Source: a virus. Taken from it: a stretch of DNA of 50,409 bases. Both the position numbers and the translations under genes were made by a program. Location of the stretch: the IMG/VR virus record IMGVR_UViG_3300029266_002412, positions 1-50,409 of that record; one strand, 5' to 3'. Each line of letters opens with the position of its first letter. Within the stretch, counting starts at the first letter, position 1. Below are positions 22,389 through 42,822 of this stretch, one piece after another. The notes beneath the pieces were generated by a model. It was not told the DNA's origin. It saw only the letters and a list, made by a program, of their open reading frames with translations, and did no database searches.

Positions 22389-25300
22389 TTATATTAACTT
22401 TTTTATCGAAGAGTTTTTGCTTTTTGTGAAACCGAACTTGTTTTTTGACGAAGGTATTAATACAAATTCACCTTCTTTTAATCCTGCAATGTCCCTTGTA
22501 TTGAATATGGTAATATATAACTGTTTTAAATCATCTTCTAATACGATCTTGTAAAATTCTCTACCTGTTTTTTTAGATTTCTTAATAATTATTTTATTTA
22601 TTATACCATACATTTGAAACTGACCTTTATCTAAATCATCAGGTATTTGCTTTGGGCTAGTTAACTGGCGTATTATATCAGGTGCGTTGTCTTGAAAGAA
22701 TTCTGTATATTTAACAAAAGGATGCTGGCTGAAATAAAAGTCAAAGTACTTCTTTTCAAATGCAAACTTTTCAGATTTCTGCCAATCCTTTTCACCTACA
22801 TTAGATTCTAATACTTCTTTTACTTTGTCATCTACATTTTCTTTCTTCTTAAGATTTTTACATGCAGTAAGTACCTCTTCTAATATCTTTGAATTATCGA
22901 AAACAGTTTTAAAATATCCTAGTCTACACAAAGGTTCATATGTACGTTTCGTAACTTTGTTTTCAATTATAAAATTAACAAGATCTGGTATTGTTTTTAT
23001 CTGATCTGGTTTAATTGAGTTTATAAGTGCAGCATCTTTGTCAGGCACACCTTTAACTAAGTTTAAGCCGAATTTTATAGAGTCACGTTCTCTATCTATT
23101 TCAAATTTATTACCTGTTTGGCCGATAATGAATTCATTGAATCTTATACCTTTACCTTCGATCTGTTTAACAAACCAACTTAATTCATCGTTTGTAGAAT
23201 GATTAAGTAGTGATGCGTAATATTCTTTAGGATAGTGAACTTTTTGCCACATAGATATATAAGCATTCATAGCATATGCAAGTGAGTGAGACTTGTTAAA
23301 TGAATATTCAGAATATTTACCTAAAACATCAAGTAATTCATCTATATCCTTGTCTTCCATACCTTTTGCTCTAGCTCCTTTCTTAAATCTATCAAGCATG
23401 TCATAAAAATTACCTTTTTTAGCTTGATTACCTTTGTGCAACAACTTAAGGATTTTTCTACCACCATCTGCTTCAGCTAATGTAAATCCACCTATCTGCT
23501 GTAATATAAACATAATCTGCTCTTGGAATATTGGAACACCTAGCGACTCACCTAATATATCCCAAAGAATTGGAGATTTTTTGTCTAGAAGCTTTTTTGC
23601 CTCTTCCGGATTTTCGCGGTTTTTGAGATATTCATCAATTCCACCGGCCTGGATTATGGCAGGGCGAAACATTGCATTGATAGAAGAAAGATCGATAATA
23701 TTTTTTGGCTTAATTGTTCGGATTAAATTTATCATATTATCTGATCCAAATTGAAATATGTCCTTGCAGTTACCTGTTTCAAACTCATCATAAACAGCCT
23801 TATCATCAAAGTCAGATTTTAGTATCTCTTCTTCTAGACCATATTTTCCATGATCTTTTTCTATCAACTTAAATGTATCATTAATAACCGATGCTGCTTT
23901 TAAGCCTAGAATATCTAACTTACAATAACCTAGATCACTTACTTCACGTTCATCTCCACCTTCCTGTACACCGGTAACAATTTCACCTTTCAATCTTAGC
24001 AGAGGTATTTCTGATTTGTCTAGATCTTTATTGCTTACAAGTATACCTGATGCATGTCTACCTGTTTGTCTTACCATACCTACCATCTTAGGTGCTACCT
24101 TTAAAAACAATTCTTTGTTATCTTTTATAAATGCCATAAGATCTTTTTCACCTTTTTTCTGAGCAATAGTAAAAGCATTTTTTATTTCTATTTCTATAGG
24201 TGAGTTAGGATCCTCTCCAAAATATCCTGTAAGTTTATTTGATAGAACAAAGTCTAGTTCATGTATTCTACATAAATCTTTTACAGTAGTCTTTGCACCG
24301 AACTTACCAAAGTTTGCGATGTGACATACACGTTCAGTACCAAACTTATCTTTAAGATAACCTTCACATAGCTTTTGAGTATCAGAATCTATATCTAAAT
24401 CTACATCTGCAGGGTCAATTCTAGCAGGGTTTAAGAACCTTTCGAAAATTAGATTATGTCTAATCGGATCGATCTTTGTAATATCTAGCACAAATAAAAC
24501 AAGAGAACCACCTGCTGAACCTCTACCTGCACCTGTTGCACCACCTACTTTATATACAAAGTTGTTTAACAGATCATCTAAAATAAGGAAGTAGTCAATA
24601 AATCCTTTCGATTTTATAATGTCCAATTCATATTTTAATCTATCTGTATATTCTTTATTATTGTCAGGTAGTAAGCCATTGCCTATCTTCTCAACCCATT
24701 TTACTTTAAGCTTTTCCATAAATTCAGATTCACTTTGCTGTTTGTCTTCATGATACTTAGGAAAGTTATCTGGATATTTAGGTAGTTCTATGTTAACCTT
24801 GTCGTTTATTTCGAATGTAGAATCGATTGCCAATTCTAGGAATTTCTTATCCATTCCATATTTCTCTGCTTCAGCATATATCTCATCTATCTCTTTGATG
24901 TATAACGAGTGAACACTATAGAACCAATCTTCTACTGGATACGATTGCACTGTTTCACGCTGACGTATTACATATAACAAGTATTGGATGTACCAATCAT
25001 CTTTATTTGCGTAGTGATAATCTAAAGAAAACACAGGTTTTATTCCTGTTTTTTCATACACCTTGTGGTAAAAGTTATTACATTGCATCTGCATATCAAG
25101 ATTGTTAAGCTGTATTTCAAGATAGAAGTCTTCACCAAACTTATCTCTATACTTTTTAATAAGCTTTAATGCCTCAACCTCATTTCCAGATAATATGTAT
25201 TGATTCCACTTTGATTGTAAGCACCCTGTAGTAATTATATTATTTTCATCTAAAGTGTTGTATACTTTATCCATACTAGATAAAGGCTTTCTATAAAATG

Positions 25301-25742
25301 TATCGAAACTTGAATTTGAAACCTTTAATATATTTTTAACACCTTCATAGTTTTTAGAATAAACAAGAGTGTGATTGTTTGCAGCAGCTGATTTGTCTAG
25401 GTGTTCACCGGCATCACCTATTACATCGATGGAGCCTTTTTTTAGATCTAAGAATTTTTCATGATCACTATGATATAAATCATTAGTATATAATTCACAG
25501 CCTATAATTGGATTTAGATTGTTTTCCCTTGCTTGTGTATAAAACTTAGAGAACGAAGACATGTTGCCATGCTCTGTCAATGATATACCTGGTGCACCTA
25601 CCTCTTTTGCACGAGTCATTATATCCTCTATCTTTGTTACACCATCTCCTTGTGAGTAAGTAGAATGGCCGTGCAAAGGAACATAGTTTGTAAATTTATT
25701 TCCTGTTTTGTACTTTAGTTTGTAGTCACATTTTTGACACAT
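22389..25742 (-). CDS. dnaE: DNA polymerase III alpha subunit (family C), DnaE-like
   Basis: A 1117-residue replicative polymerase. A PHP domain opens near residue 20 (YVPLHGHSTYSQGDG, ISLTEHGNMSSF); GAGRGSAGGSLVLFVLDI at about 404-421 is the catalytic GRGSAAGS segment; PADVDLDIDSD at about 444-454 is the PDIDIDF-type motif with two catalytic aspartates. The palm and fingers (YSEYSFNKSHSLAYAM) are followed by a C-terminal OB-fold-like region (FYKIVLEDDLKQLYITIFN). Family C polymerases are the bacterial replicases and are uncommon in phages. The beta-clamp-binding motif was not identified. A promoter-like element precedes it. Confidence 0.95.
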   Translation of the reverse strand: MCQKCDYKLKYKTGNKFTNYVPLHGHSTYSQGDGVTKIEDIMTRAKEVGAPGISLTEHGNMSSFSKFYTQARENNLNPIIGCELYTNDLYHSDHEKFLDLKKGSIDVIGDAGEHLDKSAAANNHTLVYSKNYEGVKNILKVSNSSFDTFYRKPLSSMDKVYNTLDENNIITTGCLQSKWNQYILSGNEVEALKLIKKYRDKFGEDFYLEIQLNNLDMQMQCNNFYHKVYEKTGIKPVFSLDYHYANKDDWYIQYLLYVIRQRETVQSYPVEDWFYSVHSLYIKEIDEIYAEAEKYGMDKKFLELAIDSTFEINDKVNIELPKYPDNFPKYHEDKQQSESEFMEKLKVKWVEKIGNGLLPDNNKEYTDRLKYELDIIKSKGFIDYFLILDDLLNNFVYKVGGATGAGRGSAGGSLVLFVLDITKIDPIRHNLIFERFLNPARIDPADVDLDIDSDTQKLCEGYLKDKFGTERVCHIANFGKFGAKTTVKDLCRIHELDFVLSNKLTGYFGEDPNSPIEIEIKNAFTIAQKKGEKDLMAFIKDNKELFLKVAPKMVGMVRQTGRHASGILVSNKDLDKSEIPLLRLKGEIVTGVQEGGDEREVSDLGYCKLDILGLKAASVINDTFKLIEKDHGKYGLEEEILKSDFDDKAVYDEFETGNCKDIFQFGSDNMINLIRTIKPKNIIDLSSINAMFRPAIIQAGGIDEYLKNRENPEEAKKLLDKKSPILWDILGESLGVPIFQEQIMFILQQIGGFTLAEADGGRKILKLLHKGNQAKKGNFYDMLDRFKKGARAKGMEDKDIDELLDVLGKYSEYSFNKSHSLAYAMNAYISMWQKVHYPKEYYASLLNHSTNDELSWFVKQIEGKGIRFNEFIIGQTGNKFEIDRERDSIKFGLNLVKGVPDKDAALINSIKPDQIKTIPDLVNFIIENKVTKRTYEPLCRLGYFKTVFDNSKILEEVLTACKNLKKKENVDDKVKEVLESNVGEKDWQKSEKFAFEKKYFDFYFSQHPFVKYTEFFQDNAPDIIRQLTSPKQIPDDLDKGQFQMYGIINKIIIKKSKKTGREFYKIVLEDDLKQLYITIFNTRDIAGLKEGEFVLIPSSKNKFGFTKSKNSSIKKLI

Positions 25743-25766
25743 AGTTTACCTTTTTTATTTTATATT

Positions 25767-25794
25767 ATAATATAACAAATTTATGGGAGATATG
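25767..25794 (-). promoter_or_regulatory. Shared phage promoter-like element (site I)
   Basis: Minus strand reads CATATCTCCCATAAATTTG then TTATATTAT, about 25 bases before the DnaE start at 25742. It matches the TTTGTTATATTA right half exactly; the left half is less regular than in other sites. Confidence 0.5.
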
Positions 25795-25819
25795 AAAGGA
25801 TTTTGAGAAGTATTTTGCA

Positions 25820-25834
25820 AAAGTTATTAACAAT
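25820..25834. repeat. 15-bp sequence shared with 39897-39911 (AAAGTTATTAACAAT)
   Basis: The 15 bases AAAGTTATTAACAAT occur here and at 39897-39911. In both places they overlap or touch the stop codon of a minus-strand gene and lie just upstream of a promoter-like element. The core GTTATTAAC is a near-palindrome, so a protein-binding site is possible. Confidence 0.4.
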
Positions 25835-26318
25835 GAGTCCAGGGCTTTAAACCATTCTCCATAAATCTATGAAGAGATGTTATGTGAACATGTATTTTTC
25901 CAAACTTATATTCAGGCCAGCAAGTTATGAGTGCAGACATAATCATCATATAAGTCTGATTATCATAGCAGAAATTGTTATCAAAGTTTTGACTTCTTAC
26001 AAACACATGTATATCTATCTTTCCATCTCTTGCTATTGCCTGTATTGTAGAAAGACAAGCTGTTAAATATGGATTGTCTTGATATGTTTTATGAAGCACA
26101 CATTGCCTAGACTCTATACCTTTTGTTTCGCATATCTGTAAAATGTCTTCTATGATCTCGTTGCGTTCGATTTCATCGCCTTCTAAAGCAGGAGGTATTT
26201 TTTTACCCATAAATCCTGAATCAACCTCTACATCATAATTAAAATTGTATACTTCTCTATATGTGGAACTGCCTTGTGAGCTTAGCAGGCTTTCTATTTT
26301 CTGTGTTATTTTCTTCAT
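25827..26318 (-). CDS. ThyA/dCMP-hydroxymethylase-family protein, short
   Basis: A 163-residue protein with the core motifs of the thymidylate synthase superfamily. NPYLTACLSTIQAIARDGK aligns with the PCHxxxQFxxxDGKL active-site segment, the catalytic Cys being C88 and the following His replaced by Leu. HVFVRSQNFDNNFCYDNQTY matches LxxRSxDxxxGxPxNxxxY, giving the phosphate-binding Arg-Ser and the conserved Asn. KIHVHITSLHRFMEN corresponds to the late GDxHxY segment. Canonical enzymes are about 260-310 aa; the N-terminal region is missing or very short. Substrates in this family are dUMP or dCMP with methylene folate. The reaction here, methylation or hydroxymethylation, cannot be settled. It overlaps the reductase by 62 bases. 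Confidence 0.72.
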   Translation of the reverse strand: MKKITQKIESLLSSQGSSTYREVYNFNYDVEVDSGFMGKKIPPALEGDEIERNEIIEDILQICETKGIESRQCVLHKTYQDNPYLTACLSTIQAIARDGKIDIHVFVRSQNFDNNFCYDNQTYMMIMSALITCWPEYKFGKIHVHITSLHRFMENGLKPWTHC

Positions 26319-27321
26319 AATGCTTTACTATCGATAAATATGTTTTTGTTATACCTTCTGCTGAATTCATTGCATCAGCAGGCAAATTGTAGTGCTGATA
26401 TAAATCATAAAAGTTTTTTGATTTTCCATTGTGTCTTGCAAGGTAGTCACCTTCTGCAATTATGTTTATGTGCTTGCTTAAATTATCACACCCTGTTACT
26501 TGCTGTATAAGATATAGATAGTTTTCAAATGCCATTGGTCTATCTTTACTTATTATAAAGTCTTTGCCCCAACCATTATCCATTAACAAAAGAGTAATAA
26601 ACATATCAGCAAAGTATTCATATCTCATATAGTCTTTTTCTATTTTAGGATCAAGCAGTACATCAAGTTTGCCATTTTCATTAAGTGGAGACAATGTATA
26701 AGGTATGTTGTTCTTACCACAATATACTTTTTCTGTTATCTTTCTTATCATAGATGAGTTGTCGAATGGTGCATCACCATAAATAAACACAGGTTTTATA
26801 ACCATCATTTTATCAATATCCATAGCCTGTTTTACAGCTAGTTCACCTGAGTATTTAGATAAACCATAAAGTGTTTTAGGATCTATTTTTGCAGTTTCAT
26901 CAAACTCACCATTGTTTTTCATGTACTCATCAGGATCAAATACTGCAGTAGTTGAAAAGTAAATAAGCTTACAGCCTACAGCGTTAGCTACGTTTATAAG
27001 ATTTTGAGTACTTACAATGTTAGAATTTACCGCCTCGTATGAAAAGTCATCACACTTATCTGTATTGACATAAGCAGCTGTATGTATTATAATGTCTTCT
27101 TCTGTTAGTTTTTTCGCTACAAGATCCAATACATCTGTATCAGTTACGTCAACCTCTTTGTCTTTTACAAGCTTTCCATTTAGATAGCTAAAGTCGTTTG
27201 TATATTTAGCTAGATCAGAATTGTCCATAATTTCAAATCTTTCTTGATTAGATTCTTTGATTGCTTTAATAATAGACGTTGCTAACATTCCACTTTCACC
27301 TGTTATAAATATTTTTCTCAT
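26257..27321 (-). CDS. RmlD-like NAD(P)-dependent sugar reductase/epimerase
   Basis: A 354-residue SDR: MRKIFITGESGMLATSIIKA is the GxxGxxG-type nucleotide loop; DIIIHTAAYVNTDKCD follows RmlD's N-AAYTxVDxAE; KLIYFSTTAVFDPDEY and KTLYGLSKYSGELAV give the S/T...YxxxK triad. VIKPVFIYGDAPFDNSSMI resembles the later RmlD segment. dTDP-4-dehydrorhamnose reductase acts on dTDP-4-keto-rhamnose; other family members act on GDP- or UDP-sugars. It is unusual here: it lies in the nucleotide block, away from the main sugar island. It is coupled to the kinase-like gene by ATGA and shares 62 bases with the ThyA-like gene. Confidence 0.8.
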   Translation of the reverse strand: MRKIFITGESGMLATSIIKAIKESNQERFEIMDNSDLAKYTNDFSYLNGKLVKDKEVDVTDTDVLDLVAKKLTEEDIIIHTAAYVNTDKCDDFSYEAVNSNIVSTQNLINVANAVGCKLIYFSTTAVFDPDEYMKNNGEFDETAKIDPKTLYGLSKYSGELAVKQAMDIDKMMVIKPVFIYGDAPFDNSSMIRKITEKVYCGKNNIPYTLSPLNENGKLDVLLDPKIEKDYMRYEYFADMFITLLLMDNGWGKDFIISKDRPMAFENYLYLIQQVTGCDNLSKHINIIAEGDYLARHNGKSKNFYDLYQHYNLPADAMNSAEGITKTYLSIVKHYEENNTENRKPAKLTRQFHI

Positions 27322-27740
27322 AATTTCTCTTGTATTTTTCCTGCTGATTGATTTATGTCATCAAGCGTAGTATCTATTCTATCTACTTTTATGTCGTATT
27401 CTATAACAGCTGTTTCAAGCACATCGTAAAAGACATCTCTATGTTTTTTCCAGTCTTTTATATCCAAATCCGCTTCATCGTGCTGTATAAATCTTTTCTT
27501 TACCAAGTCAAATGAACAGTCAATGAAATAAAATTCCTCACCTCTTTTGCTAGCATTTGACCATAGTTCAAAAAACAACTTTTCATTTATGTCTCTTTTA
27601 TATAACCTGCTATATGCTATCTGAGATAAAAAAGATCTTATATAAACCAGTGTGCTACCTTTTCCGTTTTTAACTACTTGTCTTCTTATCGAGTCTTTGC
27701 CTGTCTTATCAGGGCCGTCAATGTGTACTATCCTTCCCAT
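27318..27740 (-). CDS. Thymidylate kinase-like P-loop protein, short
   Basis: A 140-residue protein with GRIVHIDGPDKTGKDSIRRQ, a Walker A loop (GPDKTGKDS) of the deoxynucleoside-monophosphate kinase type, usual form GxDGxGKST. EFYFIDCSFDLVKKRFIQ resembles the Leu-D-x-x-x-xxAxxR stretch of thymidylate kinase, with part of the LID region lost. Typical TMP kinases are about 205-215 aa, so this is truncated or minimal. The neighbouring dUTPase, MazG-like fusion and thymidylate-synthase-like genes point to dTMP or a modified dNMP as substrate. It overlaps the upstream gene by 13 bases. Activity on a hypermodified nucleotide would be consistent but is speculative. Confidence 0.72.
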   Translation of the reverse strand: MGRIVHIDGPDKTGKDSIRRQVVKNGKGSTLVYIRSFLSQIAYSRLYKRDINEKLFFELWSNASKRGEEFYFIDCSFDLVKKRFIQHDEADLDIKDWKKHRDVFYDVLETAVIEYDIKVDRIDTTLDDINQSAGKIQEKL

Positions 27741-28081
27741 GTCGTCATCTCTTCTGTTATTCTTTTCAAATGATACACAGAAACTTTTCCAAATATCAAA
27801 GTCTTGTTGTATACAAGAATTTCATTTTCACTTTTTCTATGTAAATCAAATGCATCTTCTACTACAATATCTAGGCTTCCATAACCCGTGCTGTCTTCCA
27901 TAGGTATGCAGCATACAAATTCTCTTTCATAATCTTTTACTAACGAGTATGCCCAAACATCTCCTATAAAAGATTTTGTTTGTATCCTGTCTTTTACCAA
28001 AGATTCCCAGAATTTTATTTCTTGCTTTGCAGCTGGATTTTCATAGAAACAATAAGTTAATTTAATTTCCTGTACTACCAA
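27728..28081 (-). CDS. Unknown protein, 117 aa (TTG start)
   Basis: A 117-residue protein, VVQEIKLTYCFYENPAAKQE and FVCCIPMEDSTGYGSLDIVV, ending RITEEMTTWEG. The first codon is TTG at 28081; AGGAGG two bases upstream is also coding sequence of the dUTPase, and no ATG occurs until residue 61. It is alternately hydrophobic and acidic, with a likely alpha/beta fold; no motif is recognised. It lies between dUTPase and the TMP-kinase-like gene with 13-20 base overlaps on both sides, so it is surely translated in this operon. A nucleotide-metabolism accessory role is a guess. Confidence 0.6.
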   Translation of the reverse strand: MVVQEIKLTYCFYENPAAKQEIKFWESLVKDRIQTKSFIGDVWAYSLVKDYEREFVCCIPMEDSTGYGSLDIVVEDAFDLHRKSENEILVYNKTLIFGKVSVYHLKRITEEMTTWEG

Positions 28082-28523
28082 AGCCTCCTTCTCCTCTACT
28101 TGTTACATTAAGCTCATCAACTTCTTTAAATTCAAAGTTAGGTACAGGCATGACAATAATCTGACCTACTCTGTCACCTGGTGAGTATCTTTCTATATCT
28201 GTAGAACAACCTGATTTTTTAAATCTTAATTTTACAGGGCCTCTATATCCCGAATCAACTACACCAACGCAGTTAGCTAGCATCAAATCTGTTTTAGATA
28301 CAGAACTACGTGGGAATAAATAACCTACGTATCCTGCAGGTATTTCCATAGCAAGGCCTGTGTCGTACTCCATGTATCTAATTTCTTGAGATGTGAAACC
28401 TTCAGTTGGAGCTCCATACTTTACTGTCATTGATACTGCTGTTAAATCCATACCTGCATCGCCTAGTTTTGCGTATGTCGGTATAGTTGCTGTTGGGTCT
28501 AATTTTTTAATGTTAATTTTCAT
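28062..28523 (-). CDS. dut: Trimeric dUTPase
   Basis: A 153-residue dUTP pyrophosphatase with all five family motifs: GDAGMDLTAV (motif 1, near residue 21), YLFPRSSVSKTD (2), NCVGVVDSGYRGPVKLRF (3, with catalytic Asp and uracil-binding Tyr), YSPGDRVGQIIVMP (4) and the C-terminal GEGGFGSTG (5). The length and motif order are normal. It removes dUTP and supplies dUMP to thymidylate synthesis. It is encoded directly after the MazG/HAD fusion. Presence of an intact dUTPase argues against a uracil-containing genome. Confidence 0.95.
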   Translation of the reverse strand: MKINIKKLDPTATIPTYAKLGDAGMDLTAVSMTVKYGAPTEGFTSQEIRYMEYDTGLAMEIPAGYVGYLFPRSSVSKTDLMLANCVGVVDSGYRGPVKLRFKKSGCSTDIERYSPGDRVGQIIVMPVPNFEFKEVDELNVTSRGEGGFGSTGN

Positions 28524-32557: not shown

Positions 32558-33907
32558 TTAGTCGTCAAGTTCTTCGAACCTCTTTTTCATTTCTTTTCGC
32601 AAATATTCTTGATGATTACTCATTTGAGTTGTTAACTCTTTACCTGTAACAGAGCTTTCATCAAATATGTTAAAGCTACCGTTATTTGTATCTATCTGAC
32701 TTGGGAAAGTTATTCCATCAGGTCCAAATCTATTTTTAATAACATGTATTCTACCAGTGCCGCCTACTTTATCTTCTATCTTTCTAGATAGTGACATTAC
32801 AAAATCAGCTGTCATTATCTTTGAATATGATTCTGCAATCTTGTCTGCTTGAATTACGTCTTCTTGCAATGCTGATCTGTTTGCTTGTGATGCTGTCCAT
32901 ACCGGCACATCTAATGTACCTGCTAGACCTCTAAGTTCTTCATAAATGTTACCTAGCTCTAGTCTATAATCCTTCTGACCGCCGTTGCCTCTTAATAAAT
33001 CTGCATAATCCAATATGATCATATCAGGTTCTTTACCTAGCATCCTGTATCTTTCGACGTGTGAAGCTATTGTAGATATTGCAGCTGTTTTAGTTGGGTA
33101 ATACTTTACAATAAGGTTTCCTGGTATCTTTTCAACTGTTTCTTTTACTGCATCTATATTATATTTAAGTTCTTGATTTGCAATACCTGTTATAACTGAA
33201 TCGTATCTTAATCCTACGTAAGCTTCGTTTAGCTCTAAAGTATAGTGAAGTACATTTTTACCTTGCTTGATAACATTTGCTCCTAAGTTAACTAATAAAA
33301 ATGATTTACCAATACCTGCCGGTGCAACAACAACTCCTAGCTCACCTTTACCTAAACCACCATCCATTAAGTTATCTATAACATCCCAACCTGTTGGCAA
33401 TATATGACGAGTAGCTTGATTATATCTATCATCTACCATTGCAACGTAATCATGACCTACATTTCTTTCAGTACCTGCAGTCATTGCTGCATCTATCTTA
33501 GCTTTTATAGCGTCGTATTTTCCTGCACTTAATAGTTCTACTGAATCCATAATGGCATGTTTTAACACTTTGTTTTTACAAAAGTCAAGTGTCTGCTCCA
33601 TTACAAATTCTAGATCTTGTGAGTCAACGTACTTAAATGTGTCTTTTACATTTGCAATGATGCTTTTCTTATATACATCATCAGTTATCTGTGATATCTT
33701 TACTTTAAGAACCTCAGCTGTTGGCTGTGTTTTATATTTTCTAAAATAGTCTTTTATAACAGTTACCAAAAACTGGTTAGATTCATTTTCAAAATATTCA
33801 GGTTCAAGTATATCATCTATTTGCTGAAGGAATTCTTTGTTTTTCAACAAACATGTTATAATTTTTATTTGGAAGGTGTAACCAAACTCGCTTAATCTAT
33901 CACTCAT
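32558..33907 (-). CDS. DnaB/gp41-like replicative DNA helicase
   Basis: A 449-residue helicase. The N-terminal 150 residues form a helical domain (FQIKIITCLLKNKEFLQQID); residues 170-420 are RecA-like. GVVVAPAGIGKSFLLVNLGA at about 191-210 is the Walker A loop; VLHYTLELNEAYVGLRYD is motif 1a; EPDMIILDYADLLRG is Walker B; VWTASQANRSALQED is the H3-like motif with SQ-x-NR, and IHVIKNRFGPDGITFP is H4. It unwinds DNA at the fork, in partnership with DnaE here. It overlaps the 5'-3' exonuclease gene by four bases. No primase domain is fused and none was found in the window. Confidence 0.92.
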   Translation of the reverse strand: MSDRLSEFGYTFQIKIITCLLKNKEFLQQIDDILEPEYFENESNQFLVTVIKDYFRKYKTQPTAEVLKVKISQITDDVYKKSIIANVKDTFKYVDSQDLEFVMEQTLDFCKNKVLKHAIMDSVELLSAGKYDAIKAKIDAAMTAGTERNVGHDYVAMVDDRYNQATRHILPTGWDVIDNLMDGGLGKGELGVVVAPAGIGKSFLLVNLGANVIKQGKNVLHYTLELNEAYVGLRYDSVITGIANQELKYNIDAVKETVEKIPGNLIVKYYPTKTAAISTIASHVERYRMLGKEPDMIILDYADLLRGNGGQKDYRLELGNIYEELRGLAGTLDVPVWTASQANRSALQEDVIQADKIAESYSKIMTADFVMSLSRKIEDKVGGTGRIHVIKNRFGPDGITFPSQIDTNNGSFNIFDESSVTGKELTTQMSNHQEYLRKEMKKRFEELDD

Positions 33908-34947
33908 ATACTTTTAACCGCCATTGCTTCTAGGTGAGAAAAACATTGCTTTAGCCAGAGGTCGGGATTTCTAATTGCAGAATTTGTCTTGTCTTCTAAC
34001 ATAAGCTTTTGAAATTTATATTTTACTAATCTGTTTATGGGTTTCCTAACAGCATCTATAATTCCTGATTTTATACTGCCTGGAATGTCAACATCACTTA
34101 GCTGCATTAAGTCATAGTTTAATCTTATCATAGCTTCGTTATTTTTTATGTCTGCAATTACTTTTGAATCATCATCGAGATTTTTAATGTGATCAATCAT
34201 TTCATCAAGAGTAAGCTTTTTGTCTTCAAATAATATAGGAAGTTTTTTCTTAAGTGTTTTAACACCTACGCCTCGTATACCTGGAATGTTATCAGAAGCA
34301 TCACCTTTCATTGTTCTATATAATAGAAAGTTGTGAGCAGGTATTTCAAAGTCTTCTAGTACAGAATCTTTAAAATAATATTTCTTTTTAGTAGGAGACC
34401 ATACCTGAACTCTATCATCTACTAGCTGGAGAAAGTCTTTGTCTGTTGACATTATATAGAAGTGGCTTTTAGGATATACCTGCTGTGATAGATATGCCAT
34501 AGCATCATCAGCTTCTATATTTTCTGGTGCTATCACTGTCATTGGGAGTGTATCAAGATATTGAGTTAATCTACGAATTTGATTTTTCATAGATATACTT
34601 TCATCTTCTTGATTGTGGAAGGAGTCTAGACGAGTTAACCGCTTTCTAACTTTTCTGTTCGCTTTGTACTCGGGAAAGAGTTTGCGTCGTTTACTAGAAC
34701 CACCTTTGCCATCAAAACAAATAATAACTCTACTTGGTTTGATGTTTTTTATTGCATAACCTATAGACTGCAGAAAACCCGTCATCCCTCCAATATGTAT
34801 ACCGTCCTCGTTCATACTAGGGTTGACGGCAAAAGCCCTAATAAATGTATTTAATCCATCAATCACTAATATTCTGTCATCAGGTGACTGATTTACCTGA
34901 TCCTCTGGTTTGAGATTTTTCAGGATTTCTATATAACTTTGTTTCAT
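33904..34947 (-). CDS. 5'-3' exonuclease / flap endonuclease
   Basis: A 347-residue FEN/5'-nuclease. RILVIDGLNTFIRAFAVNPS gives the first metal-binding Asp; RVIICFDGKGGSSKRRKLFP then EYKANRKVRKR is the helical arch region; ENIEADDAMAYLSQQ and FYIMSTDKDFLQLVDDRVQV supply the EADD and STDxD acidic clusters; GDASDNIPGIRGVGVKTL is the helix-hairpin-helix. These are the hallmarks of Pol I 5'-nuclease or T4 RNase H. As the window's PolA-like protein lacks this domain, this separate enzyme can remove RNA primers and flaps. A promoter-like element ends seven bases before the ATG. Confidence 0.92.
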   Translation of the reverse strand: MKQSYIEILKNLKPEDQVNQSPDDRILVIDGLNTFIRAFAVNPSMNEDGIHIGGMTGFLQSIGYAIKNIKPSRVIICFDGKGGSSKRRKLFPEYKANRKVRKRLTRLDSFHNQEDESISMKNQIRRLTQYLDTLPMTVIAPENIEADDAMAYLSQQVYPKSHFYIMSTDKDFLQLVDDRVQVWSPTKKKYYFKDSVLEDFEIPAHNFLLYRTMKGDASDNIPGIRGVGVKTLKKKLPILFEDKKLTLDEMIDHIKNLDDDSKVIADIKNNEAMIRLNYDLMQLSDVDIPGSIKSGIIDAVRKPINRLVKYKFQKLMLEDKTNSAIRNPDLWLKQCFSHLEAMAVKSI

Positions 34948-36196: not shown

Positions 36197-36230
36197 AATT
36201 TTCTCTTTTATTTAATTAATATAATAATAA

Positions 36231-36450: not shown

Positions 36451-36456
36451 TTATTA

Positions 36457-37587
36457 TTATCCTATTGGTACATCATCATTTCCAATTTCAATATCATCGA
36501 TACCTATATTGTCAGTGTGATATGCCATTACTAATACTTCACAAATTTTATTGTAAATTCTTTTTTTCCTATCTGGATCTGAAAGAATTAACCTTTCAAA
36601 GTCTTTTGACAAAAACTTTATCTCCTTACCTGATACATCATCAGTGTAAGTATACCATGACCCACCTTGTTTTATAAGATTATAGTCTTTTAATACTTGT
36701 AGCCATCCACCAAAATCATCAATTCCAGATTCAAAATAAATATTAAACTCTGCTTCTCTTAAAGGTGGTCCCATTCTGTTCTTGACAACCTTTGCTTTTG
36801 TCTTAATACCTATAACTTGTTCTTTACCGTTAATCTTAGCTTTTATCTGTCCTGCTGCTTTCAATCTTAATCTACAACTAGCATGAAACTGAATTGCTTT
36901 ACCACCTGATGTAGTATATTTGTCTCCAAACATTACACCAAGCTTTTCTCTTAGCTGATTTGTAAATACCAAACATACTCTTTCTCTACCAATTAACTGA
37001 GTTATCTTTCTCATACCTTTTGACAACACGATAGCTTTTGATGTAGCCCAACCTTCTTTATCATAGTCTTGAGCCTGTTCAATCTTTGTTGTCGCTGCAG
37101 CTACAGAATCCACTGCAATTGATACAAGTCTGTTTTTGTCTGATTCTTTTACTTTTAGAATTATATTTTCAATTACTTCAAAAATATCTTCTACAGCTTC
37201 AAGTTGAATGTATAACATCTTACCCATATCCATACCTATCGCTGTTAAGAAGTCCTCGTTCATAGCGTTTTCAGTGTCAATGTATACAGCCAAGCCTCCC
37301 ATTTTTTGAGTGTTAGCAAGTAGATGAGCGGCTATAAGTGATTTACCAGAAGCTTCCATTCCAGTAATTTCTGTAATTCTACCTACCGGTAAACCACCAT
37401 TAGCTCTATTAGAAATAGCTAGGTCAAGTAAAGATGAACCTGTACTTATCCATTCAGTCAAATCGGTTGGAGTATCTTCCGCACCATCTAGAAAGTATGC
37501 TACTTTCATTCCTTTGAACTGCTTGTTTAATGAGTCAGCTAATACGCTGGCCAATTCATCTCTTTTGTTTTTCTTATCCTTTGCCAT
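36457..37587 (-). CDS. recA: RecA-family recombinase
   Basis: A 376-residue RecA-like ATPase. STGSSLLDLAISN and GGLPVGRITEITGMEASGKS give the typical N-terminal core with Walker A (GMEASGKS at 76-83; bacterial RecA has GPESSGKT). LVSIAVDSVAAATTK is Walker B; CLVFTNQLREKLGVMFGDK covers loop L1 with its conserved NQ...R; TTSGGKAIQFHASCRLRL is the L2 and post-L2 strand (usual GG.ALKF..S.R). The C-terminal 60 residues are acidic. It should catalyse strand exchange, replacing T4 UvsX. It forms an operon with the gp32-like SSB, 11 bases apart. Confidence 0.94.
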   Translation of the reverse strand: MAKDKKNKRDELASVLADSLNKQFKGMKVAYFLDGAEDTPTDLTEWISTGSSLLDLAISNRANGGLPVGRITEITGMEASGKSLIAAHLLANTQKMGGLAVYIDTENAMNEDFLTAIGMDMGKMLYIQLEAVEDIFEVIENIILKVKESDKNRLVSIAVDSVAAATTKIEQAQDYDKEGWATSKAIVLSKGMRKITQLIGRERVCLVFTNQLREKLGVMFGDKYTTSGGKAIQFHASCRLRLKAAGQIKAKINGKEQVIGIKTKAKVVKNRMGPPLREAEFNIYFESGIDDFGGWLQVLKDYNLIKQGGSWYTYTDDVSGKEIKFLSKDFERLILSDPDRKKRIYNKICEVLVMAYHTDNIGIDDIEIGNDDVPIG

Positions 37588-37598
37588 ACTCTTTCTCC

Positions 37599-38351
37599 TT
37601 ACTCGTTAAATAAATCATCGAATGCAGATTCTACATCCTTAGTTGATGATACGCCTGTTGACTTTGATGTTGATGCTACTGGTGCAGTTTCTTCACCGCC
37701 GTCTGGGTTTAACCATTCTTCCAATACAGCTTTTAGATCATCATAAGAATTCTTTCTGAATATCTCATAGATTTCTTTCTGTCCACTGACAATTTTATCA
37801 GCAACGTTTGTGTCAGCTGTTGCAGCTGTTTGGTTTGGTTTTACACGGATTACAGTTTTAGGATAGTTTCCTACTCCTTCTGCTGGTGTGAACTCTAATG
37901 AGATATCTCTACCAGATTTTACATCTGTGATATCACCATAATCTGGATCTGAAATAAATCCTAGCAATTCAGTATATACCTGCTTACCAAATCCCCAGTA
38001 CTTAACACCTTCAGATTCCTGTCCTCTAACGATCACCGGTACATAACATCTCATCTTTGGTGATAATTTTCTTGCCAATTTAAAGTCATCTGATTTTCCA
38101 GTTGCTCTAAGTTTCTGTGCAAATTCTTCTACTGGATCTGGTTCACCATAAGTAATTGGTGATAGATAATTCTTTTTACCTAAGTCATAGTGAAAATACA
38201 TTTCGATGAAAGGATTTTCTTTGTTATGCTGGTAAGGTACAATTCTTACTTGGTTTTTACCTGGTTCAGGTTTCCACAAGTTATCTTGTCTTCCTGTTTG
38301 TGTTTGTAAGTTGTTTAACTTACGTCTGATTGCGTCTAAATCAATAGCCAT
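37599..38351 (-). CDS. gp32-like single-stranded DNA-binding protein
   Basis: A 250-residue protein following the T4 gp32 layout: a short N-terminal basic arm (DLDAIRRKLNNLQTQTGRQD), a core beginning LWKPEPGKNQVRIVPYQHN with strands and aromatic residues (FIEMYFHYDLG, MRCYVPVIVRGQE, GVKYWGFGKQVYTELLGFI), and an acidic tail (VESAFDDLFNE) like that of SSB proteins. The zinc-binding cysteines of T4 gp32 are absent. It coats single-stranded DNA at forks and in recombination. A ribosome binding site (AGGAGA) and a promoter-like element (site K) precede it. Adjacent recA fits a shared role. Confidence 0.87.
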   Translation of the reverse strand: MAIDLDAIRRKLNNLQTQTGRQDNLWKPEPGKNQVRIVPYQHNKENPFIEMYFHYDLGKKNYLSPITYGEPDPVEEFAQKLRATGKSDDFKLARKLSPKMRCYVPVIVRGQESEGVKYWGFGKQVYTELLGFISDPDYGDITDVKSGRDISLEFTPAEGVGNYPKTVIRVKPNQTAATADTNVADKIVSGQKEIYEIFRKNSYDDLKAVLEEWLNPDGGEETAPVASTSKSTGVSSTKDVESAFDDLFNE

Positions 38352-38379
38352 TTTTTTCTCCTGTTTAATTATTATTTAG

Positions 38380-38405
38380 TTAATATAACAAAAATAAATT
38401 ACATT
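38380..38405 (-). promoter_or_regulatory. Shared phage promoter-like element (site K)
   Basis: Minus strand reads AATGTAATTTATTTTTG then TTATATTAA, about 30 bases before the SSB start at 38351. Only the right half is a strong match; the left half has lost TGTCA. Confidence 0.45.
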
Positions 38406-38415
38406 ATATAATTTT

Positions 38416-39420
38416 TTATAAAGTATTTTTGTATTTTTTTAGGTAGCCTTCTATGGCTAATTCCTTATGTTTTGCTTCGACAACAACATCAATGTCTAGT
38501 CCGTAGTCTTGTATTTCATCTACGATTAGATCTGAGTGTGCCTGTACTTTTATTTTCTGAGTTTCCTTATATAGCTTTTCCATAGTAGGATATCCAGCTA
38601 TATCGTTTATTGTAATTTTACTGTTTTTAAGAAAAGCTTCAACAATTAAGCCTTGTTCGCGCCTACGTGATTCAGAATAGTGAGTGCAAGGTTTTACATC
38701 ACCCCATGTAGATGCTGCAAGTTTTAGTGCTTGTTCTTCTGTGAGGCCGCCTGTGCAGAATTGGTGGTGGTGGTAATCGAATACAATAGGAATTCCTACA
38801 CGTTTGTATACATAATCGTATAAGTCTTGTACAGAATACATAGATGCCTTATCGTCGTTTTCCACTGTGAGCCTAGATTTCGCTGATTCACTTAGCTTTT
38901 CAAAGTTATTGCAAAATCTAACAAGTGCAGTTTCCTTATTACCATAAGCACCACCAACATGAATATTAATCTTTGCCATTCGTGAGCGAGGTAAACCCAT
39001 AAGGTCCATAATCTGGCCTGATTTGTTTAGTTCGTTCCAAGCACCATCTACAACTTTTTGATGAGGTGATGCAAGTACTGTAAATTGTCCTGGGTGGAAT
39101 GAGAGACGCTGTCCATAACCTTGTGCAAGATCACCTGCTTGCTTTAAAAGCTTACACAATTCATTGTAACCTGGTAAGTCTTTGAATTCGTATTCAGACA
39201 TCCAAGGGTATATTTCGCTTGACATACGGAATACTTTTATTCCATTATCCTCATTCCATTGAATGATCTTAATAAGATCTTTTGTATTTTCTATACACAA
39301 TTCAGACACATAGTCTAAGCCTTTTGCATCGTATGTTCGCCTAATCATTGAGCGACCTGTGTATATACCTTGTTTTCGTAAGTGCATGTTTATACATGCG
39401 TATCCTAATTGTTTTGCCAT
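38416..39420 (-). CDS. uvsE: UV-damage endonuclease UvsE/UvdE
   Basis: A 334-residue TIM-barrel endonuclease. MAKQLGYACINMHLRKQGIY is the family N terminus (LGYACxN); then FRMSSEIYPWMSEYEF, LSFHPGQFTVLASPHQKVVD, INIHVGGAYGNKETALVRF, LTVENDDKASMYSV, FDYHHHQFCTGGLT and THYSESRRREQG carry the metal-binding His, Glu and Asp residues. The family nicks DNA 5' to cyclobutane dimers, 6-4 photoproducts and some base lesions. Phage copies suggest infection in lit surface water or the need to repair DNA before replication. A promoter-like element (site G) ends immediately before the ATG. Confidence 0.95.
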   Translation of the reverse strand: MAKQLGYACINMHLRKQGIYTGRSMIRRTYDAKGLDYVSELCIENTKDLIKIIQWNEDNGIKVFRMSSEIYPWMSEYEFKDLPGYNELCKLLKQAGDLAQGYGQRLSFHPGQFTVLASPHQKVVDGAWNELNKSGQIMDLMGLPRSRMAKINIHVGGAYGNKETALVRFCNNFEKLSESAKSRLTVENDDKASMYSVQDLYDYVYKRVGIPIVFDYHHHQFCTGGLTEEQALKLAASTWGDVKPCTHYSESRRREQGLIVEAFLKNSKITINDIAGYPTMEKLYKETQKIKVQAHSDLIVDEIQDYGLDIDVVVEAKHKELAIEGYLKKYKNTL

Positions 39421-39425
39421 ATTCT

Positions 39426-39451
39426 ATAATATAATAAATTTAATTGACATA
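39426..39451 (-). promoter_or_regulatory. Shared phage promoter-like element (site G)
   Basis: Minus strand reads CTATGTCAATTAAATTTA then TTATATTAT, ending about five bases before the uvsE ATG at 39420. Confidence 0.55.
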
Positions 39452-39457
39452 GAGAAA

Positions 39458-39802
39458 CTATTTCCATAATATTTGTATACAAACTAATGTTGTTGCTAAT
39501 ACAAGTGATATTGCAGTTTTTGTTGTTATGCCTTCGTCCATAAAAAACCAAGTAAGTAATACAAATGATATCATACCTGTACCAAAGCCTATAAATCTAC
39601 CAGGCCACAGTAGACCATCGAAGTGACCTACGACGTGCTTTGTTGCTAATATAAACATATATGAAATTACTGTTCCAAATGTTATCGATAAAATTAAGGG
39701 ATTTTTGTCAAACCATTTCCAGAGAAACTGGCCGTTTGTTTGTATCCAGATCAGTGTCTGGCCTGCAAAGAATAGTACTATCGCTAGTGTCAATTGTTTC
39801 AT
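39458..39802 (-). CDS. Small integral membrane protein, four predicted helices
   Basis: A 114-residue hydrophobic protein with four likely membrane segments: LTLAIVLFFAGQTLIWI, ILSITFGTVISYMFILAT, FIGFGTGMISFVLLTWFF and KTAISLVLATTLVCIQILW. Between the second and third lies KHVVGHFDGLLWPGRFIGFG, a polar loop with Gly-Arg. The layout is like EmrE/DMT-type small transporters, but the resemblance is weak and no motif proves transport. It may sit in the host inner membrane. Its promoter-like element (site B) is nearly the same as site A. It is expressed separately from tail genes. Confidence 0.7.
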   Translation of the reverse strand: MKQLTLAIVLFFAGQTLIWIQTNGQFLWKWFDKNPLILSITFGTVISYMFILATKHVVGHFDGLLWPGRFIGFGTGMISFVLLTWFFMDEGITTKTAISLVLATTLVCIQILWK

Positions 39803-39844
39803 TCGTTATTGTTCTTTTGTTATTAAGTAATTTTTAATTATATA

Positions 39845-39870
39845 TAAATATAACAAATCTTTCCGATATA
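39845..39870 (-). promoter_or_regulatory. Shared phage promoter-like element (site B)
   Basis: Minus strand reads TATATCGGAAAGATTTG then TTATATTTA, about 45 bases before the membrane-protein start at 39802. It differs from site A by one base. Confidence 0.6.
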
Positions 39871-39896
39871 TGAAAATTTATATGGGTTTTTTTTAT

Positions 39897-39911
39897 AAAG
39901 TTATTAACAAT
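39897..39911. repeat. 15-bp sequence shared with 25820-25834 (AAAGTTATTAACAAT)
   Basis: Identical to 25820-25834. It touches the stop of the 133-aa gene and precedes promoter-like site B. Confidence 0.4.
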
Positions 39912-40312
39912 TATTTTTTAACTTTAATGTAGATTACTTCCTTTACAGAAGTATCTATTCTTCGCAAACCTTCATCGTTGGTTACAAGTATAGAATTTCT
40001 GTAGTTGCTCCATTCTAACTGAAACCTAGTATCTAGTACTCCATTGTTGCACATTTTAATACATTCATTTAATGCGTTAATAGTATACAGTGTGTTAGTC
40101 TGCTTTTTTCTATGTAAAGATATAGTGTCTGATATAATTTCTACTTGCTGACTTGAGTCTATATTATATGTACACATTAGTTCTGATTTGTTTTCTTCAT
40201 TGTTTAATATGAAAAGTTTGTTGTATAGAATATCATATCTATCTATTATCTTATCTACAGTTTTTGTAAGAAACTTTGTTTTAGTGAAAGTACATAATAA
40301 CTGTGTTTTCAT
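39911..40312 (-). CDS. Unknown phage protein, 133 aa
   Basis: A 133-residue basic protein beginning MKTQLLCTFTKTKFLTKTVD, with a helical middle (TLYTINALNECIKMCNNGVL) and C-terminal RNSILVTNDEGLRRIDTSVK. Its start codon shares one base with the stop of the 489-aa protein upstream, indicating coupling. The layout (beta, helix, beta) and position after structural genes suggest a small structural or regulatory protein. I do not recognise a family and see no catalytic residues or membrane segments. Downstream lies a short intergenic region with promoter site B. Confidence 0.68.
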   Translation of the reverse strand: MKTQLLCTFTKTKFLTKTVDKIIDRYDILYNKLFILNNEENKSELMCTYNIDSSQQVEIISDTISLHRKKQTNTLYTINALNECIKMCNNGVLDTRFQLEWSNYRNSILVTNDEGLRRIDTSVKEVIYIKVKK

Positions 40313-41781
40313 TATATGTCCCCACCTTTAGTTTGACTTACAGGATTTATTAGCAATCTGCAACCTATCATAAGTCCATCTTTTACTTCAACCTTAGATG
40401 CTCCTGTGTATCTTGCTACCATGAATGGCTCATATTGCTTTCCAAATGAAGGGAATTTTTCAACACCTCCATATATTTTAGGATTCCACATAATATGTCC
40501 TGCACTACTTACTCCTATATGCACAGCTGTAGCGTCACCATCATCGTTGATAGCAAACCCTACAGAAAATGCAGTGTTATCTTGCATAAGAATATGGCAA
40601 TTATTTATTCCAGCTTTACCTGTAAAATAATCGTTTCCGAATATTGACATCATTGCAACTTTCTTTCCTACGTCACCAGCTTTAAGTACAGATCTTCGCC
40701 TTGACCACCCTGAACCGTTTTCTAAAACGTAAAGATTTTTAGGCTTCAGCTTTCCTATTTTATATGCTTGGCTCTTCCATAGCTCATCATTCTGATCTTT
40801 AGGAATAATTTCTTTTCCATCACTAACAAGTATCCAATTCTTTCCATCATTCTTCAACTGCGTTACGTTCTTATATACTACACCAGATTTTGCAACCTCT
40901 TTTTTAGTAGCTTCTACGAAGTCATCAATCATTTTTTTAACACCAGGCAAGTCTTGCATCTGTGCAGTAAATTTCTTATTATAGAAACTAGATATAGAAC
41001 CATATTGTTGAAACGATGCTTTTAATTCATTTCCTGATGGGTCAAACATAGCTCCGTGTTTGTATGACATAAAAAAAGTTGGTTTACCACCAATGCCAAA
41101 TGTTAAATCTGCTTTTGGTACACCTTTAACTTTAGTACCTCCTCCAATTTCCACTCCAGTATCTCTACCTTTAATAAACAAAGGAAGTGATTTTTTCTTA
41201 CTTAAGTATGTTTTCATCCAAATATCAATATTTTCTATTTGCATGTTTTCATATCCAATACCTGCAGCTACTTTTGATTTTATTTCAGCACCCATCTGGA
41301 TAAGCTTTAATATTGTGTGTACTCTGCCTAAGTGCTTGTCAGAACCTTGTTTAACTTTTTTTGCTAACTGACATATTCTTTCTCCATACTGAGTTCTTAC
41401 TTTGGTAACTGAGCCAGCTGTTGTAATTACCAGTTTTCCCTGTATTGATATTATAGCCTTAAGATCTGCAAGTGTGTATTGTTTCTTGTTAGGATCAAAT
41501 TTGTTACCACTACCTGCTGTTAATGAACCAGGACTAAGTGAAGATATCTTGTCAGCATCTTCCTGTGTTATATCTGTACCTCCTACTTGTTTTACAATAG
41601 AAAGCTCAAATGTTCCAGCTCCTTCGTTTATACTTCTTATATATGCAGTAATAAATTCTTCAGAATATTTGTGGTCTCTAAGAGTTGCCTCTAGCAATTC
41701 AATATGATTTCTATTTTTTGGGTCTGGCATTCCATTATTAACTTTGTATGCCCAATCTTGTATTAAATAGTCTGTGTTCAT
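40312..41781 (-). CDS. Unknown protein with PD-(D/E)XK-like nuclease motif, 489 aa
   Basis: A 489-residue protein. VPKADLTFGIGGKPTFFMSY then KHG at residues 221-243 has the shape of a PD-(D/E)XK core: Pro-Lys-Ala-Asp225, a 15-residue beta hairpin, then Ser-Tyr-Lys241. EIGGGTKVKG just before may contribute the upstream acid. The N-terminal 130 residues are helical (YSEEFITAYIRSINEGAGTF, TLADLKAIISIQG); the C-terminal 150 are beta-rich, with NCHILMQDNTAFSVGFAIND. It could be a restriction-endonuclease-like or packaging/virion nuclease. A structural role cannot be excluded, since tail genes precede it. Function is inference from one motif. Confidence 0.72.
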   Translation of the reverse strand: MNTDYLIQDWAYKVNNGMPDPKNRNHIELLEATLRDHKYSEEFITAYIRSINEGAGTFELSIVKQVGGTDITQEDADKISSLSPGSLTAGSGNKFDPNKKQYTLADLKAIISIQGKLVITTAGSVTKVRTQYGERICQLAKKVKQGSDKHLGRVHTILKLIQMGAEIKSKVAAGIGYENMQIENIDIWMKTYLSKKKSLPLFIKGRDTGVEIGGGTKVKGVPKADLTFGIGGKPTFFMSYKHGAMFDPSGNELKASFQQYGSISSFYNKKFTAQMQDLPGVKKMIDDFVEATKKEVAKSGVVYKNVTQLKNDGKNWILVSDGKEIIPKDQNDELWKSQAYKIGKLKPKNLYVLENGSGWSRRRSVLKAGDVGKKVAMMSIFGNDYFTGKAGINNCHILMQDNTAFSVGFAINDDGDATAVHIGVSSAGHIMWNPKIYGGVEKFPSFGKQYEPFMVARYTGASKVEVKDGLMIGCRLLINPVSQTKGGDI

Positions 41782-41811
41782 GATGATCCCTTTATCTATA
41801 TAAATATCAAA

Positions 41812-42822
41812 TTAAAGGTCCAAAGACCTCATGTTATGATAGTCCCTACCTATCTTAACTTTAGTAGGCAGCTCCATTAATTTCTTAATTTCACTTAGGA
41901 TTTCCTTGCCATCATCAGAACTAATATCAAATACAAAAGCGTCGTATACATAAAGTATAATTTTACTAAACTTATTTTCTAACATATCTAAAATATTCTT
42001 TAGAATTCTAGAATTAGTTTCTGTTTCCAATGCCTGTATATAATAGTTAAATAGTTTTTGAGGATTCATATCCTTGAAATTTCTTTTATAGAACCTACGT
42101 TTTAAAATTGGTGTTTCTATGTAACCTTTACTATTATAAATATCCCACAATTTAAAAATATATTCATTTGTTCGTTTAAAATAATCTATATGCAAAAATT
42201 CTTTTGGTATACCTCCGTATAATATCTGAAAGCTTATTTTTTTCGAATCTTGATATTGCTCATCTGTAAGTTCAGCTGTATCAAAGTATAGTTTTCCTAA
42301 ATATCTATGAAAACTTCCTTTAGGCTGCTCTATATCTACTAGGTTTGCAATCAATCTCAGGTGATATGCATCGTAATCTAATTCTGCTATTATGCCTCCA
42401 GGGTGTCTACTTATATATTTTGATCTTGTGCCGCTTTCTTTGTTAAGTCCAGCATAGTTTATTCCATTATTTGAATTGGAAGGTCTACCTGTTGTGGTAA
42501 ACAAGTTGTATTTCGTGTATTCAAATCCGCTTTCAGTCCAAAGTCCGCTTTTTTCAATTTCTCTAAAATGCTTAACAACATTATCATTATATGATTTGAC
42601 CATACTTTCAGACACATCAGGAATCGCATGCGAAAGAGCGTCTAAATGATCTTTTTCTTCTCTAATCTTGCTCTGAGGTATGATGTCATATAGATTATAT
42701 CTGTCTCCGTATAACCTTTTATAGAATGTGCTTATTGGTAGATCTATAGAGTCATTGCTCATAGCTTTGTTGTAATGAAGATAATATCTTACTTGTAATT
42801 TATTGCGAAGTTCTGTTAACAT
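41812..42822 (-). CDS. Minimal family A DNA polymerase domain, atypical
   Basis: A 336-residue protein with only the polymerase domain of Pol I. TTTGRPSNSNNGINYAGLNK at about 109-128 matches TxTGRLSSxxPNLQNIP; AELDYDAYHLRLIANL at 146-161 is motif A (usual DYSQIELRxxA, Asp149 conserved, the steric-gate Glu replaced by His154); SKKISFQILYGG at 193-204 is the O helix (K...F...YG); ILYVYDAFVFDI at 289-300 is motif C with Asp294 but VYDA instead of VHDE. No 3'-5' or 5'-3' exonuclease domain is present; the 5' nuclease is a separate gene. Catalysis is possible with both aspartates, but the altered positions could mean unusual nucleotide selectivity or a non-replicative role. Confidence 0.82.
   Translation of the reverse strand: MLTELRNKLQVRYYLHYNKAMSNDSIDLPISTFYKRLYGDRYNLYDIIPQSKIREEKDHLDALSHAIPDVSESMVKSYNDNVVKHFREIEKSGLWTESGFEYTKYNLFTTTGRPSNSNNGINYAGLNKESGTRSKYISRHPGGIIAELDYDAYHLRLIANLVDIEQPKGSFHRYLGKLYFDTAELTDEQYQDSKKISFQILYGGIPKEFLHIDYFKRTNEYIFKLWDIYNSKGYIETPILKRRFYKRNFKDMNPQKLFNYYIQALETETNSRILKNILDMLENKFSKIILYVYDAFVFDISSDDGKEILSEIKKLMELPTKVKIGRDYHNMRSLDL

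Follow-up and report, generated by a model that had tools for sequence, protein, structure and literature searches.

A small family A DNA polymerase with a reduced thumb and a histidine at the steric gate is a conserved second polymerase in a large group of T4-like phages

An extra family A DNA polymerase, divPolA1, was described by Yutin et al. (2024, Virol J 21:200; PMC11348598) in 14 phages with genomes of 155-190 kb, where it accompanies a regular polymerase of family A, B or C. In these phages, the palm residues of divPolA1 are kept, its thumb is truncated, its exonuclease is dead, replication genes lie downstream and GroEL/GroES genes are found close to the regular polymerase. The same study described divPolA2, which is likewise an extra family A enzyme that stands beside a regular polymerase and lacks a homologous thumb, but which was reported from barbaviruses, has its own N-terminal globular domain and sits in a variable neighbourhood, and we set it apart on the basis of that description. 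Polymerase swapping in Caudoviricetes, where the polymerase family changes in a fixed slot, was also reported (PMC11348598).

The window analysed here (the whole stretch of DNA under study, a 50,409-base fragment) displays these divPolA1 traits at the level of protein and gene neighbourhood and has a DnaE in the regular slot, although its small family A polymerase is a shorter form (336 aa) that has lost the beta-sheet part of this dead domain. The features considered below are:

18875-20515, minus strand: GroEL (Pfam Cpn60_TCP1, E 1.2e-64)
20517-20810, minus strand: GroES, recognised by eye from its translation, marking the regular-polymerase neighbourhood
22389-25742, minus strand: DnaE-type polymerase III alpha, 1117 aa, presumed replicase (Pfam, PHROG_405, alignment)
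32558-33907, minus strand: DnaB-type helicase (PHROG_19, E 1.5e-82)
33904-34947, minus strand: FEN-type 5'-3' exonuclease, proposed partner (Pfam 5_3_exonuc_N, E 9.2e-33)
36457-37587, minus strand: RecA/UvsX recombinase (PHROG_97, E 1.3e-70)
37599-38351, minus strand: gp32-type ssDNA-binding protein (Pfam gp32, E 3.8e-13)
40312-41781, minus strand: 489-aa protein directly downstream of divPolA1, with no credible family match in Pfam or PHROG
41812-42822, minus strand: divPolA1, 336-aa family A polymerase (Pfam, homology, alignment, predicted fold)
45688-46092, minus strand: presumably a gp53-like baseplate protein, upstream boundary of the module

A preliminary description of this DNA had given exactly these coordinates for both polymerase genes, leaving out their strand, and had reported that a family C polymerase coexists with a small family A polymerase and a separate 5'-3' exonuclease. 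Pfam and PHROG matches bear this out. DnaE is full length, with the Pfam PHP, DNA_pol3_alpha and finger domains all matched, an E of 2.5e-240 against PHROG_405 and an alignment to Thermus DnaE 2hpi (E 1.2e-103) in which the catalytic and PHP metal ligands are visible; no family B polymerase was found in the window record. The small PolA scored 44.1 bits against the Pfam DNA_pol_A cut-off of 34.3 and matched gp001 of Flavobacterium phage immuto (35.4% identity over 92% of the query, E 2e-51), and it belongs to divPolA1, a family that is itself already published. The statement that phages normally encode one replicative polymerase is therefore fair as a rule, to which divPolA1 has been a published exception since 2024.

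Compared with Klenow and Bst, divPolA1 retains the palm and fingers fold, the catalytic aspartates, the Lys/Phe/Tyr of motif B, Asn845 and Gln849, whereas it is without a full thumb or a working exonuclease, it carries E710H, R754Y and H881Y, and the 5'-3' exonuclease is a separate gene in the window phage. The window protein consists of palm and fingers with a cut-down thumb; of the exonuclease-like domain, the helical half alone remains. Its thumb, on which the preliminary description was silent, is almost wholly missing: 16 residues separate IEKSGL from TGRPSN, the corresponding IExxGL-to-TGR spacing is 16-36 residues in 99 members, and a matched comparison gave thumb spans of 22-40 residues in eight members versus 124-387 in eight regular PolAs. 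The small PolA had correctly been said to have no exonuclease, as DNA_pol_A_exo1 gave no match, and the sheet half of that domain is absent, the window protein aligning from Bst residue 367-368 and the long forms from 301; judged by anatomy only, the 3'-5' exonuclease of divPolA1 is inactivated. An AlphaFold2 model of the protein reached a pLDDT of 92.9 and a pTM of 0.88, and the best PDB matches of this predicted fold were Pol I large fragments (Z 26.0, 318 residues, 3.6 A).

A profile alignment with Klenow paired D149, H154, K194, F198 and Y202 of the window protein with D705, E710, K758, F762 and Y766, and Y293-D294-A295 with H881-D882-E883; motif A reads DYDAYH (residues 149-154), motif B is K194/F198/Y202 and motif C is YDA (293-295). 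Both catalytic aspartates are kept, as had been noted (D149 and D294), and they were found in 102/102 (motif A) and 107/107 (motif C) rows among 107 distinct relatives, as were the equivalents of K758 (104/104), F762 (105/105), Y766 (106/106) and Q849 (107/107). The reported histidine at the steric gate was likewise recovered: His154 stands in place of Glu, with His in 102/102 aligned relatives and Glu in 8/8 regular PolAs. The equivalent of R754, which had gone unremarked, is Tyr190, and it is Tyr in 103/104 relatives. Concerning motif C, the change from VHDE to VYDA is real, but loss of its Glu is ordinary in phage PolA; since Ser or Gln occupies this site in 5/8 of the regular PolAs compared, a T7-RNA-polymerase-like motif C (YDS/YDA) was rejected as a signal. 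Our analysis adds that E710H, R754Y and H881Y form, in these alignments, an invariant set in divPolA1. The search patterns used to gather relatives include the gate His, and 80 of 551 confirmed stretches were kept in the sample. Members that did not match DYDA[YF]H nonetheless had the gate His in 25/25 cases, and those that did not match the motif C pattern had Tyr-Asp in 43/43, five incomplete rows lacking motif A being left out of this count.

The steric gate of Pol I touches the sugar and not the base, and the gate His is shared by many different phages, which makes the earlier suggestion that this enzyme handles modified nucleotides a weak one. Although immuto carries a 7-deazaguanine gene set, we claim no link between modified bases and the gate His, because relatives in widely differing phages all share it. 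Elsewhere in family A, the gate Glu is near-universal and is credited with preventing the entry of RNA into DNA. The literature searched, figures and supplements aside, does not mention a His gate in divPolA1; a search of the text of PMC11348598, figures aside, returned neither steric gate nor histidine, and the accessible part of PMC2579912 has nothing on the steric gate.

The distribution of the family is far wider than published: divPolA1 is widespread in aquatic phages and is a conserved second polymerase in a large group of T4-like (myovirus) phages. In a tree built by a quick method, for which the 99 rows with 280 aa or more were reduced to 81 by a 92% identity limit, one clade, that of the window, also lacks the beta-sheet part of the dead exonuclease (rows L036 and L125 appear short in this tree merely because their contigs end, and MelJY01 forms a very long branch). 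Since this short clade has an SH-aLRT of 83 and is joined with three long forms beside it at 97, the sheet half was likely, though not certainly, lost once. Rhodothermus phage RM378, considered as a relative because of a possible split PolA, was rejected; its two annotated polymerase-like genes gave no family-profile match, and read by eye, p12 is a 5'-3' exonuclease and p24 has a family B-like exonuclease motif.

Around divPolA1, gene order was retained in 45/45 loci. Where the flank was long enough, gp32 was found downstream in 42/42 loci, RecA in 32/32 and FEN in 25/25, and a homologue of the 45688-46092 protein was found upstream in 40/41; a homologue of the 489-aa protein lay near 36/86 loci, and no FEN-divPolA1 fusion was seen. 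This neighbourhood suggests a function in replication or recombination, and it is compatible with Okazaki maturation, D-loop synthesis and repair.

In relatives, the regular-polymerase slot is filled by either DnaE or PolB. In the window, GroES/GroEL (18875-20810) sit two genes from DnaE, and the GroES-GroEL pairing is also found in immuto. A family B or C polymerase was detected on 15 of 42 IMG/VR contigs (11 PolB, 4 DnaE), which lists more contigs than the published account of swapping, and in 13/13 contigs extending 20 kb downstream of divPolA1. The distance between the two genes was 13.9-23.8 kb, and contigs G011 and G015, which had no family B/C match in 18.0 and 19.0 kb downstream, end within this range. 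A cell genome (G043) was left out of these counts, and the divPolA1 position was derived from locus coordinates for G009, G027, G028, G036 and G042. As for primases, DnaG_N (PF08275) gave no match above cut-off in 12 records, and PHROG_47 detected a primase in 6/12, the other six being fragments. Considering that this DnaG-type primase was present in 3/3 named phage records, priming is covered, and we rejected divPolA1 as a substitute primase.

The repair or gap-filling role first suggested for the small polymerase would fit both its anatomy and its neighbours. We propose, with roughly even confidence, that divPolA1 acts with FEN as a short-patch, non-proofreading gap filler and DnaE as the replicase. 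DnaE would be the processive enzyme, in a slot that polymerases of families A, B and C occupy interchangeably; FEN, an exonuclease with a gene of its own, would first remove RNA primers or flaps, and divPolA1 would then fill gaps on gp32-coated single strands with short, non-proofread patches, the two proteins together working as a "Pol I in two pieces". Most likely, divPolA1 is catalytic and distributive, partners with FEN and serves the lagging strand or repair. Its catalysis may be slow, because the R754, H881 and E710 positions are changed together, and a family A enzyme that has no thumb may grip DNA weakly unless helped by a putative partner. In phage Tt72 PolA, an Ala mutant at the E710 equivalent retained 35% activity and a natural Ser at E883 is functional (PMC9324360).

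The same neighbours could instead point to a polymerase that extends RecA/UvsX-invaded 3' ends on gp32-coated DNA (D-loop synthesis), the FEN linkage being incidental. The nearest conserved downstream genes are indeed gp32 and RecA (42/42 and 32/32 loci), with a UvdE repair gene in between in 20/86 loci; however, FEN is linked just as tightly (25/25 where the contig reaches), a thumbless enzyme should be without the processivity that D-loop synthesis normally requires, and we consider this reading unlikely. The setting of such synthesis would be recombination-dependent replication or break repair. It is very unlikely that the essential replicase is divPolA1, with the DnaE, PolB or PolA of the swappable slot as an accessory: the replication operon keeps divPolA1 throughout while the regular polymerase switches family, and the role of the regular enzymes was called "less obvious" by Yutin et al. 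(PMC11348598), but a protein of 336 aa without thumb or proofreading stands against a full-length DnaE with PHP and polymerase domains, and the regular polymerase was never missing from contigs reaching 20 kb (13/13). The replacement of three conserved Pol I active-site residues and the loss or shortening of two domains would fit a non-catalytic or decaying phage Pol I remnant, which might at most persist as a binding factor. This reading, which the preliminary description had named as one that would refute its own, is extremely improbable, because dN/dS values of 0.04-0.13 (YN00; four pairs with L019 not included) indicate strong purifying selection and because the two catalytic aspartates, like the equivalents of K758, F762, Y766 and Q849, are invariant.

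A further question is whether the altered gate admits ribonucleotides, as it may. Ala at the family A steric gate is known to open it, and His at this position in all aligned relatives, including the 25 outside the His-containing search pattern, against Glu in 8/8 regular PolAs, would agree with a gate through which ribonucleotides pass freely, leaving ribo-patches or allowing RNA primers to be extended. On the other hand, His is bulkier than the gate-opening Ala, so the 2'-OH may still be excluded, F762 and Y766 are retained, and a dedicated primase exists in 3/3 named phage records; such free entry appears quite unlikely. The related idea that E710H, R754Y and H881Y together rebuild the active site, which would then accept ribonucleotides or RNA primer ends and leave mixed ribo/deoxy patches in the gaps of RNA-primed lagging strands, strikes us as rather unlikely. 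A natural gate variant of family Y, DinB2, provides a precedent for rNTP use (PMC4176160).

divPolA1 is thus a widespread polymerase family in which the gate residue is replaced and most of the thumb is gone, yet which is strongly selected, and its study would bear on how little of Pol I suffices and on whether a steric gate can be rebuilt. If the sugar-permissive reading were true, a thumbless enzyme would fill RNA-primed lagging-strand gaps. Phage replication in this group shows two layers: the small polymerase stays the same and keeps its link to FEN, gp32 and RecA, and the replicase is exchanged freely.

Every gene of the polymerase and replication module lies on the minus strand of the window, a 50,409-base virus record that is probably a fragment:

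22389-25742, minus strand: DnaE (polymerase III alpha), 1117 aa, PHROG_405 match at 2.5e-240
33904-34947, minus strand: FEN-type 5'-3' exonuclease, a gene separate from the small PolA
41812-42822, minus strand: small PolA (divPolA1), 336 aa, Pfam DNA_pol_A at 44.1 bits (cut-off 34.3 bits)

The preliminary description had placed both polymerase genes exactly, and its DnaE-like polymerase III alpha is borne out by the PHROG_405 match and by Thermus DnaE 2hpi, which aligned almost end to end (1.2e-103). It had also proposed a PolA devoid of exonuclease alongside a separate 5'-3' exonuclease; the latter is the FEN-type gene, and searches of the whole record detected neither the 3'-5' exonuclease domain PF01612 nor a family B polymerase. 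Aligning the family profile to Klenow confirmed the register of the two proposed active-site changes, with His at the steric gate E710 (Klenow numbering) and Tyr-Asp-Ala at H881-D882-E883.

The small PolA is divPolA1, and thus another member of a known family. Yutin et al. 2024 (PMC11348598) describe divPolA1 in 14 phages, alongside a regular polymerase of family A, B or C, with palm residues retained, a truncated thumb and a dead exonuclease, with replication genes downstream and with chaperonins close to the regular polymerase. Within the literature text accessible to our search, divPolA1 was named solely in that paper and its preprint, and we saw no published account of the invariant changes at the gate and in the motifs, of a short clade without the exonuclease sheet, or of the wide breadth of the family. 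Using tblastn, 107 named-phage records matched, 8 of them with at least 80% query coverage; an uncultured 484-kb phage (LR756508, 37.7%) came top, with Flavobacterium phage immuto (35.4%, E 2e-51) and Microcystis phage Mel-JY01 (34.1%) among the best. IMG/VR pattern searches gave 40 loci from the single sequence and 551 confirmed stretches from an alignment (80 retained), while a scan of cellular genomes gave six MAG contigs.

Conservation was then scored over 107 distinct proteins (the window, three named phages, IMG/VR and MAG contigs). The gate His and the motif A Asp were each found in 102/102 proteins, motif C Tyr-Asp in 107/107, and a Tyr replacing R754 in 103/104, while K758 (104/104), F762 (105/105), Y766 (106/106), N845 (106/107) and Q849 (107/107) were kept. 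The His does not owe its frequency to the His-containing search pattern, since all 25 members not matching that pattern also carried it. Glu, Arg and His invariably occupied E710, R754 and H881 in eight regular PolAs, namely immuto gp199, one bacterial enzyme and six encoded by other phages or by fragments of phages. The preliminary description had left room for a decayed remnant; dN/dS values of 0.04-0.13 (two methods; window gene and four close relatives), together with the invariant catalytic residues, argue strongly against such decay.

The AlphaFold2 model (74 relatives; mean pLDDT 92.9, pTM 0.88) matched Pol I and Pol theta in Foldseek (best E 9.3e-15). Its VIA-align alignment to Bst large fragment 4dqr_D (Z 26.0, 318 residues, 3.6 A) starts at Bst residue 367-368, versus residue 301 for a 432-aa long form (pLDDT 94.1; Z 29.4, 395 residues, 2.9 A), so that, in the window's short form, the sheet half of the exonuclease-like domain has gone. 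Both forms almost lack the thumb: IExxGL and TGR are 16-36 residues apart (99 members), and the thumb span from motif start is 22-40 in eight members versus 124-387 in the eight regular PolAs. In a catalytic-core tree, the 20 complete short forms make one clade (SH-aLRT 83), joined by three 425-aa forms at 97.

Among 86 divPolA1 loci longer than 6 kb, gp32 (ssDNA-binding protein; 42/42), RecA (32/32) and FEN (25/25) follow divPolA1 wherever flank suffices, and the order gp32, RecA, FEN, DnaB is kept in all 45 loci showing the four genes. Upstream, 40/41 loci carry a gene that we take to encode a gp53-like baseplate protein. The 489-aa protein adjoining divPolA1 downstream (40312-41781, minus strand) has homologues near 36/86 loci and gave no credible match in a family search; it is a conserved companion. 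Directly upstream of divPolA1, a 276-aa protein with several cysteines near its end (42858-43688, minus strand; no credible family) has homologues near 27/86 loci. A UvdE-type UV endonuclease within the replication module (38416-39420, minus strand) has them near 20/86.

A family B polymerase or DnaE was present in all 13 IMG/VR contigs reaching 20 kb downstream; over 42 IMG/VR contigs, 11 carried family B, four DnaE and 27 neither, and in the 15 positive contigs the polymerase lies 13.9-23.8 kb from divPolA1. Mel-JY01 encodes PolB, LR756508 encodes PolB and has a DnaE match at 47415, and in immuto a full PolA (gp199) directly precedes GroES and GroEL, where the window has DnaE. Since DnaE recurs in a window-like layout in two independent contigs (G001, G006), a misassembled window is very unlikely. 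The LR756508 family B matches (260623-266900) are distributed over two open frames of 1022 and 625 aa, separated by 4-5 kb, which suggests that the gene is split or that an element has inserted; one relative's DnaE lies in two pieces in different frames (G029:C1:113366-114467, the contig of locus L085; 447 + 750 aa), possibly through a split gene, frameshift or insertion. Between DnaE and GroES/GroEL, the window encodes a Thy1-like (ThyX) thymidylate synthase (21516-22331, minus strand). Judged from translations alone, the window also has a long series of genes of sugar-nucleotide, epimerase and glycosyltransferase type (1458-16246, minus strand), which resembles the glycosyltransferase block in immuto.

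DnaE would be the natural replicase. divPolA1 lacks proofreading and most of its DNA-gripping part and keeps its catalytic core. According to PMC9324360, phage Tt72 PolA retains 35% activity when its E710 equivalent is mutated to Ala and naturally has Ser at E883, so that, by analogy, the divPolA1 changes need not abolish catalysis. The gate His may admit ribonucleotides, for which DinB2, from another polymerase family, offers a precedent (PMC4176160). A primase was detected in 3/3 named phage records, which argues against a role in priming. divPolA1 is tightly linked to FEN, gp32 and RecA, and on the simplest reading it would fill gaps after FEN, the two acting as a Pol I in two pieces. On the main rival reading, it would carry out D-loop synthesis with RecA.
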